From positions 1,550,001-1,614,000 of the forward strand of contig NZ_CP053941.1 of assembly GCF_013267195.1 (NCBI RefSeq): DNA of 64,000 bases, in the 5' to 3' direction. A program made the translations under genes and the position numbers. Positions within the stretch are counted from its first letter, which is position 1; the number at the start of each line of letters is the position of its first letter. The notes beneath the pieces are model-generated. The model did not search any database and was not told the DNA's origin. It worked only from the letters and a program-made list of their open reading frames with translations. Positions 29,728 through 57,250 of the stretch are shown here, piece after piece. This DNA comes from Halorubrum salinarum. Lineage in GTDB: Archaea > Halobacteriota > Halobacteria > Halobacteriales > Haloferacaceae.

Positions 29728-30045
29728 GACGTAGCTGCCGCCACGGAGAACACCGCCGAAGTTTCAGTTACACGACAATACGCAGCTGCCACCACGGAGG
29801 AACTCGCCGAAGCCCCAGTCGCGAGGCGGGCGCACGCTCGCCGCGCTCCTCGGTCGCTCACTCCGTTCGCTCCCTGCGGTGCTCGCGTCCCCTGCGCCCG
29901 CCTCGCGACTGCCCCTTCGAGTCCCGCCCCGCAGGCAACCGCGCCTCACGCCTCCCCAGCCTCGTCGCTCGCTTCGCTCGCGACTCCCTCGCGCGTGCGA
30001 CTCGCGCCCTGTCGGGCGCTCGTCGGCACGCGCCACCGCACACGT
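29728..30045. repeat. Structured dispersed repeat element, copy A
   Basis: This non-coding element shares several blocks, in order and in the same orientation, with copy B at 56411-56835. Two lead-in units (29730-29767 and 29781-29818) end in CCGAAG then a CAG. Next is a 19-bp perfect stem, CAGTCGCGAGGCGGGCGCA at 29816-29834 with its complement at 29893-29911, around a CTCGCT-rich loop. Then come GTCCCGCCCCGC (29921-29932), CTCACGCCTCCCCA (29945-29958), hairpin GCGCCC/GGGCGC (30004-30019) and GGCACGCGCCACCGCA (30025-30040). It fills the gap between the ligase start and the metX end. Confidence 0.7.
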
Positions 30046-55511: not shown

Positions 55512-56381
55512 ATGGATTGGAAGACAGACTGGGGGTTGCGTGGACGGATGGCGTTCACGATGTTCCTCCTGTTCGCCCTCTACGTCGTGTTCGTCGGAGC
55601 CCTGACGGTGTACTTCGGCGACTTCCTGTTCCCGCTGATCATGCTCGGCGGGTTCTCGCTCGCGCAGTACTTCTTCAGCGACAAGCTCGCGCTGCGGAGC
55701 ATGGGCGCCCGCGAGGTCGACCCCGACGAGTACCCCGACCTCCACCGGCGGATCGAGCGGCTGAGCCAGCAGGCCGACCTCCCGAAGCCCAAGGTCGCGG
55801 TCGCGAACACCCGCGTCCCGAACGCCTTCGCGACCGGCCGGAACAAGAAGAACGCGACCGTCGCGGTGACGACCGGGCTCCTGGAGAGCCTCGACGAGGA
55901 CGAGCTCGACGGCGTGCTCGCCCACGAGCTCGCCCACGTCAAGAACCGCGACGTGATGGTGATGACCATCGCGTCGTTCCTCTCCACCATCGCCTTCTTC
56001 ATCGTGCGGTGGGGGTGGCTGTTCAGCGGCGACAACCGGCAGGGCGCGCCCGTCATCGTCGCGATCCTCGTGTCGCTTCTGGTGTGGGTGGTCTCGTTCC
56101 TGCTCATCCGCGCGCTCTCGCGCTACCGCGAGTACTCCGCCGACCGCGGCGCGGCGCTCATCACCGGGAAGCCCGGCGCGCTCGCCTCGGCGCTGATGAC
56201 CATCGACGGCCGGATGGACAAGGTGCCCAAGGAGGACCTCCGCGAGGAGGCGGAGATGAACGCGTTCTTCATCATCCCGATCAAGGCCGGCTTCGTCGGG
56301 AAGATCGCCTCCACGCACCCCTCGACGGAGAACCGCATCGAGAAGCTCCGCGAGCTGGAAAAGGAGATGGAGACGGCCTGA
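55512..56381 (+). CDS. htpX: Zinc metalloprotease HtpX
   Basis: A 289-aa membrane protease that degrades damaged membrane proteins. The HExxH zinc site is HELAH at residues 138-142, with the third ligand Glu in YREYSADRGAAL. Four hydrophobic segments are seen (about 14-33, 38-54, 150-166 and 181-202), and MDWKTDWGLRGRM is at the N-terminus. A CCTTTAACG box lies about 30 nt before the ATG. It is upstream of repeat element B and convergent with the RNase P RNA gene. Confidence 0.93.
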   Translation: MDWKTDWGLRGRMAFTMFLLFALYVVFVGALTVYFGDFLFPLIMLGGFSLAQYFFSDKLALRSMGAREVDPDEYPDLHRRIERLSQQADLPKPKVAVANTRVPNAFATGRNKKNATVAVTTGLLESLDEDELDGVLAHELAHVKNRDVMVMTIASFLSTIAFFIVRWGWLFSGDNRQGAPVIVAILVSLLVWVVSFLLIRALSRYREYSADRGAALITGKPGALASALMTIDGRMDKVPKEDLREEAEMNAFFIIPIKAGFVGKIASTHPSTENRIEKLRELEKEMETA

Positions 56382-56410
56382 TACTGGTCTGAATCGGAAT
56401 TTTCGATTGG

Positions 56411-56835
56411 TTATTTATAAGCTGTTGAGAGTGGGTAGGTGACTAACACCGCCGAAGTCTTAGCCGCTTATTTATAAGACGTTGCGGGCAGGTCGGCGAC
56501 GAACACCGCCAAAGCCCCAGACGCTCGCTTATAAATAGTCGACCGTAAACCGACGGCGGACACCGCCAAAGCCCCAGCCGCGAGGACTTGCGCGCCTCGT
56601 TGCGCGCTTCAGTCGCTCGCGATGCTCGCTCCTTCCAGTGCTTACGTCAGCGGGCTTCGTCCTCGCGGCTGCCCCTTTGAGTCCCGCCCCGCACAGCACC
56701 GCACCTCACGCCTCCCCACCCTCGCGGTTCGCTCGGGGCTCCCTCCGGTCGCCCGTCGCTCACCGCGTCCCTCGCGCGTGCTCCTCGCGGCCGCCCCCGG
56801 CGGCCGCTCGCAGGCACGCGCCGCCGCAGTTCATT
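56411..56835. repeat. Structured dispersed repeat element, copy B
   Basis: This is the second copy of the family at 29728-30045. It opens with three units at about 56411, 56468 and 56529, each with a TTATTTATAA or TTATAAATAG box and, about 30 nt later, ACACCGCC(A/G)AAG (56446, 56503 and 56560). A 13-bp stem follows, CAGCCGCGAGGAC at 56575-56587 with its complement at 56659-56671. Then come GTCCCGCCCCGC (56681-56692), CTCACGCCTCCCCA (56705-56718), hairpin GCGGCCGCC/GGCGGCCGC (56787-56807) and GGCACGCGCCGCCGCA (56813-56828). It occupies the gap between htpX and RNase P RNA. Confidence 0.7.
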
Positions 56836-56869
56836 TATAACCAATCGCGCGACAGTCGCGCCGCTGGTC

Positions 56870-57250
56870 GGTGCGAGCGGACTGAGGGGAGTAAGCCCCC
56901 TTCGGTTCGTCCCGACATTCGGCTGAGCGTCCGCGCCGCGGCCGGACTACCTTGTGGCGCGGACTTGCACCGGCGAGGATTCGCCGTTCCATCCGTTCCC
57001 GCCCGTCGGCCCTCGTCGGGTTAACTCCCTTCCCTTGCGGGTCGGTTCGCGCGTTCGCGGGGTCACCCGCGAACGCCGTCGGTCGCAGAGGCGACCGCAC
57101 GCGACTCATCGGTCGGGGCGGGGGGTGTCGTTGCTGTTCCAGAGCCAGCCGTCTCCGACTCCGGGCGTGTGCCCGGTCGCCTGTCCGGCCGGTGGGGGGA
57201 CTTTCCTCATGCCAGGGGCACGGGAGTCGGGCTCCCTCTGTCCGGTTCGC
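56870..57250 (-). ncRNA. rnpB: RNase P RNA
   Basis: Catalytic RNA that trims tRNA 5' ends. On the minus strand the 5' part has ATGAGGAAAGTCCCCCC, the conserved P4/CR-I region. The 3' part has GACGAACCGAAGGGGGCTTA, the matching CR-V region. The ends pair as P1: GGACAGAGGGAG near 57232-57243 with CTCCCCTCAGTCC near 56878-56890. A total of about 375 nt is usual for haloarchaea. A TATA-like CGCTTATTCGCC lies at 57263-57275, about 25 nt upstream of the predicted 5' end. The exact ends are uncertain by a few bases. Confidence 0.93.

Follow-up and report, generated by a model that had tools for sequence, protein, structure and literature searches.

A modular hairpin repeat between htpX and rnpB of Halorubrum salinarum and the AT-rich boxes in its lead-in units

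When a 64-kb window of the Halorubrum salinarum genome (the whole stretch of DNA analyzed, 64,000 nucleotides, to which all positions refer) was first inspected, a repeat called element B was seen to begin with tandem TATA-like boxes that a related repeat, copy A, lacks. The preliminary description proposed that element B could be a transcribed unit with redundant promoters, while copy A may be silent or rely on different promoters. We asked what element B is, and whether its boxes are promoters.

Lead-in units and AT boxes of element B

Element B lies between two genes that converge on it. The upstream gene on the plus strand (positions 55512 to 56381) is an open reading frame whose product we take, from its sequence, to be an HtpX-like protease; it ends 30 bp ahead of the first AT box and has orthologues in 39 Halorubrum genomes as well as in named species, the named relatives being Halorubrum and the nearest one 100% identical. 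On the other side, adjoining element B and convergent to htpX, is the RNase P RNA gene, rnpB (56880 to 57242, minus strand; Rfam RF00373, 159.6 bits). Just past the 3' end of the RNase P RNA, the minus strand carries at 56861 to 56847 a GCGCGACTGTCGCGC stem-loop followed by GATTGGTTAT, which looks like an rnpB terminator.

Three AT boxes about 30 nt ahead of CACCGCC(A/G)AAG words were located where the preliminary description had put its repeated units. Lead-in unit 1 (56411 to 56467) opens with the box TTATTTATAA at 56411 to 56420, and unit 2 (56468 to 56524) opens with the same box at 56468 to 56477; the two form a 57-nt direct repeat with 75% identity. Unit 3 (56525 to 56560) is an upstream half only, which carries the box TTATAAATAG at 56529 to 56538 and continues directly into the body of the repeat; all three units are on the plus strand. 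The CACCGCC(A/G)AAG words start at 56447, 56504, and 56561, giving start-to-start distances from the boxes of 36, 36, and 32 nt, or about 30 nt from the center of the TATA core. The box described at the far end was likewise recovered: TTTATAA at 56834 to 56840, within TTATAAAT on the minus strand (56833 to 56840), faces into element B. By eye, an 11-bp inverted CGATTGGTTAT can be recognized at the outer ends of the element. Copy A (29751 to 30039, plus strand) consists of two lead-in units at 51-bp spacing followed by a body, and its CGCCGAAG cores at 29754 and 29805 have no TATA word between them, in agreement with the earlier reading.

The TTTATA hexamer occurs only six times on both strands of the window, four of them inside element B, and a strict TATA-like word is found in 0.12% of 15-nt windows across this GC-rich stretch. 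The AT boxes of element B are a real, non-random feature. Because the lead-in units arose from one another by tandem duplication, however, their boxes do not count as independent observations, and since TTTATAA is nearly palindromic, they say little about direction.

Copies, hairpins, and inheritance of the repeat family

Used as a query, element B matched 41 places in the genome, which is a lower bound; 40 first-look candidates were scored. A conserved core word, CCTCCCCAGCCTCG, has 61 exact copies, all on the main chromosome (C1, 2.94 Mb), against one match for the control, and an exact-word search found it absent from C2 and C3 (0.40 Mb together); the random probability of such a restriction is about 4 in 10,000. 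The repeat is non-coding and unannotated, was seen only on the main chromosome in this genome, and numbers at least 60 copies, of which element B is one. Contrasting a silent copy A with an active copy B was thus the wrong frame, A and B being two of these copies. C2 and C3 (of G000), without the core word, yet hold 7 of the 13 TnpB genes.

A consensus query gave matches in all 34 same-genus genomes searched and in several other haloarchaeal families, and distant hairpins resembling the first hairpin of the body (H1) were found on plasmids of Natrialbaceae, Halorussus, and Halobaculum. On Natrialbaceae plasmids (L267, L268, L269, L270, and L271), the H1-like hairpin stands ahead of a "DNA-binding protein" gene, located about 440 to 570 nt downstream of the match, whose product weakly matches an RPA-like OB fold (Pfam Ssb-like_OB, NCBIfam replication factor A). 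No description of the repeat was found in the open-access literature that our search covered. It appears to be an undescribed repeat family, with at least 60 intergenic sites in a Halorubrum chromosome and a presence throughout the genus. The genes next to the copies are convergent in 12 cases, tandem in 23, and divergent in 5, contexts that are approximate only, as they come from a crude gene caller; these counts led us to reject both a terminator for convergent genes and a fixed gene context.

The body of element B, delimited by genomic matches, the core word, and alignment, spans 56561 to 56827 on the plus strand; bodies are about 265 bp long and usually have three hairpins (H1, H2, and H3). 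H1 (56567 to 56679) reads AAAGCCC-CAGCCGCGAGG ... CCTCGCGGCTG-CCCCTTT, with basal arms at 56575 to 56587 and 56659 to 56671 plus outer AAAG/CTTT pairs, and shows compensatory changes at 8 of its 18 basal pairs. H2 (56723 to 56767), recognized by alignment and direct reading, varies between copies in sequence and size. H3 (56774 to 56822; GCGCGTGC ... GCACGCGC) was delimited by alignment and covariation. Covariation scoring, which covered H1 and H3, gave a score of 0.307 in 37 copies, compared with 0.110 after shuffling and 0.02 to 0.05 for slid structures; 97.7% of cells pair, and 153 cells show double changes, compared with 50.8 after shuffling. The predicted hairpins are thus supported by strong compensatory change. 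In L324 and L338, the H1 loop is inverted between intact stem arms, as recombination between the arms would give; in L331 it is replaced, and H1 is missing in three copies. Small palindromic modules of about 50 to 100 bp sit at hairpin tips or in spacers (L016, L017, L030, L035, L044, L068, L069, and L081), and the same ones recur in different copies.

In the gap between htpX and rnpB, the number of lead-in units ranges from one to seven across 13 species, and neighboring units are nearly identical within a species and differ between species. At other loci in the genomes G026 (a related species) and G016, units at one locus are copies of each other and of the opening bases of the body they precede. 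Judged by this near-identity within loci, the differences between loci, and the one to seven units at the same locus across species, the units arose by local tandem duplication of a segment that takes in about 36 nt upstream of the body together with its first 21 nt and ends in the left arm of H1.

Element B is present, with position and orientation kept, in all 13 genomes in which htpX adjoins rnpB, and the repeat was not found after htpX in genomes where rnpB has moved. In several genomes with rnpB away from htpX (L099, L107, L108, L110, L111, L116, and L121), the repeat lies close to rnpB but points the other way, hinting at rearrangements at these repeats. Most Halorubrum genomes whose flanks are readable keep the element at the locus of copy A, equally oriented, and five loci (L275, L278, L292, L293, and L295) have no recognizable body. 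One pair of H1 is A-T in 31 of 41 copies here and in 29 of 32 in G026 but G-C in 28 of 29 in G016, and it differs at 8 of 10 orthologous loci between our genome and G016; bodies at orthologous loci resemble each other scarcely more than randomly paired ones do. This pattern suggests homogenization between loci, although the orthologous pairs are few (5 to 10 in each comparison) and independent turnover could give a similar picture.

Promoters, folded strands, and terminators

That element B is transcribed rightwards by redundant TATA promoters, with RNAs starting near 56446, 56503, and 56560, is in our judgment unlikely. All three boxes have promoter-like spacing, which is consistent with transcription beginning at the first base of a unit or of the body when TATA is taken to be centered about 27 nt before the start, as in haloarchaea. 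In the corresponding slot of the last unit, a strict TATA-like word is present in 10 of 42 copies here and in 24 of 32 in G026, compared with 0.2 to 0.5% in the flanks of the copies (about 0.2% in this genome), an enrichment of about 100-fold; the sets from G026 and G016 hold the 30 copies that best matched a query built from this genome. The slot carries 1.21 bits per position in G026, compared with 0.39 to 0.89 for neighboring blocks of the unit; in that species the AT box ranks with the better conserved stretches of the last unit. Past the end of the body, a TATA-like word occurs in 13 of 42 own copies, 23 of 32 in G026, and 9 of 28 in G016. Among genes called with the crude caller, 3 of 87 have a strict word 18 to 42 nt upstream.

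Further support comes from the halovirus HF2: its class I intergenic repeats, 56 to 58 bp long, have been proven to act as promoters in haloarchaea, and their AT box precedes the start site by about 26 nt (Russ et al. 2021, PMC8707807). The haloarchaeal core promoter has a CGAAA-like BRE motif directly ahead of the TATA box (PMC4983044), which is absent ahead of the TATA boxes of our repeat, where most copies have CCGCTCG-like bases; HF2 repeat promoters, however, tolerate BRE changes (PMC8707807). Proven promoters of similar size with BRE-independent activity make a promoter function plausible here. What speaks against redundant promoters, besides the missing BRE, is that strict boxes occupy the slot in only 10 of 42 copies here and in none of 30 in G016 (a few boxes there are placed about 8 nt nearer), that a terminator scan found no T-tract terminator on the plus strand of the body, and that the folds lack a plus-strand wobble signature, with the dissent of a fold-based mismatch count in H1 (GT 41 versus AC 23). 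The promoter reading first proposed is partly supported, as the spacing and the enrichment in the slot would suit an archaeal core promoter. The box is lineage-specific and, where present, non-random. A promoter function is possible, but it would not define the family.

The strand that folds bears on the same question. Covariation is strong, but G-U pairs make up 0.7% of cells on the plus strand, compared with 7.3% in rnpB of the same genus; RNAalifold accepts 6% G-U on the bottom strand. Copies A and B had no match to Rfam covariance models up to an E value of 1, and a known RNA family was rejected on this ground. The few plus-strand G-U pairs, the loops inverted between intact arms, and mismatches favoring the bottom strand argue against a plus-strand RNA gene, which appears to be the less supported reading.

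We regard it as unlikely, slightly more so than redundant promoters, that the molecule which folds and is selected is a bottom-strand RNA or single-stranded DNA, with H1 to H3 read from right to left, possibly starting at the right-end box or continuing out of rnpB by read-through. Imperfect basal pairs of H1 are A-C on the plus strand (G-U on the bottom strand) rather than the opposite in 32 versus 7 cases among 74 distinct stem haplotypes, with the same trend in three genomes, and 37 versus 6 when counted over copies; two pairs, however, give most of this asymmetry, and the fold-based mismatches in H1 point the other way. The bottom strand folds more stably in 105 of 105 copies, but this comparison is confounded by strand composition, and we set it aside: shuffle-corrected z-scores are similar on average for the two strands (-5.0 and -5.5), and those of element B favor the plus strand (-4.8 versus -2.8). 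The right-end box is present in all three genomes, but a start 27 nt inside it would remove one arm of H3. A broader proposal, that at least 60 chromosomal DNA hairpins, kept in place and perfectly paired across the species of the genus, are a functional system acting via the bottom strand, as RNA or as single-stranded DNA, in roles such as chromosome organization or replication restart, with the TATA lead-in arrays opening or transcribing the site, seems to us distinctly unlikely. That the AT boxes are T-rich terminator tails for htpX and rnpB instead of promoters is very unlikely: a scan found two minus-strand stem-loops followed by AT boxes (56861 to 56847, beside rnpB, and 56554 to 56538), and the first box is close behind the htpX stop, but two sites compare with 0.5 expected by shuffling, T runs in the boxes do not exceed three, and copies are found in all gene orientations.

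Preferred reading and relation to known repeats

Taken together, element B is probably a REP/PATE-like hairpin repeat, inherited vertically and partly homogenized, with lead-in units that may work as promoters. It would belong to a non-coding, chromosome-restricted, modular hairpin family of Halorubrum intergenic regions, the members of which are inherited in place and apparently partly homogenized between loci. Replication slippage at the strong H1 hairpin, we infer, could duplicate the units; the AT boxes are part of the duplicated unit and are placed such that a TATA box there would set transcription off from the first base of the body. Where a species has retained the box, it may serve as a weak or redundant promoter into the repeat, on which the family would not depend. 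The perfect palindromes look maintained at the level of DNA or of a single strand, not as plus-strand RNA. As the family shows strong compensatory evolution, is conserved at its loci, and bears signs of homogenization, it could be used to test palindrome maintenance in archaea, and the tandem TATA units offer a ready test of repeats seeding promoters in GC-rich archaeal genomes.

Several origins were considered and rejected. The repeat body had no match in 50,697 phage records, and a phage origin was rejected. A PATE with IS605-type ends was rejected, as the TnpB and Y1 loci are essentially unrelated to the repeat: 12 of the 13 TnpB loci in this genome have no similarity to it and one has a partial copy about 0.9 kb away, while Y1 transposase loci have at most a weak match of 28 to 32 nt. 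No associated transposase was found for the repeat. Nor was a consistent target duplication seen; the sequences beyond the boxes differ within loci, for which reason we rejected the idea that the two AT boxes mark a target duplication.

Bacterial REP/BIME sequences are intergenic palindromic hairpin repeats present in dozens of copies. The Halorubrum repeat is like them and like Correia elements in forming dozens of intergenic hairpins, but it has a much larger modular body and tandem TATA lead-ins, and it is archaeal. Correia elements carry promoters affecting neighboring genes (reviewed in PMC10969869). The likeness to the HF2 class I repeats lies in a length of about 58 bp, an intergenic position, and an AT box, in a virus of Halorubrum; unlike element B, those repeats are viral and dispersed instead of tandem, and no hairpin body is described for them. 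The PATE, MITE, and SMR elements of Haloquadratum walsbyi are short, multi-copy, transposase-free, and palindrome-rich (PMC3119063). The small hairpin modules in hairpin tips recall the SMRs found in PATE palindromes, but the repeat described here, unlike these elements, occupies mostly shared, stable positions across species and is restricted to the chromosome.
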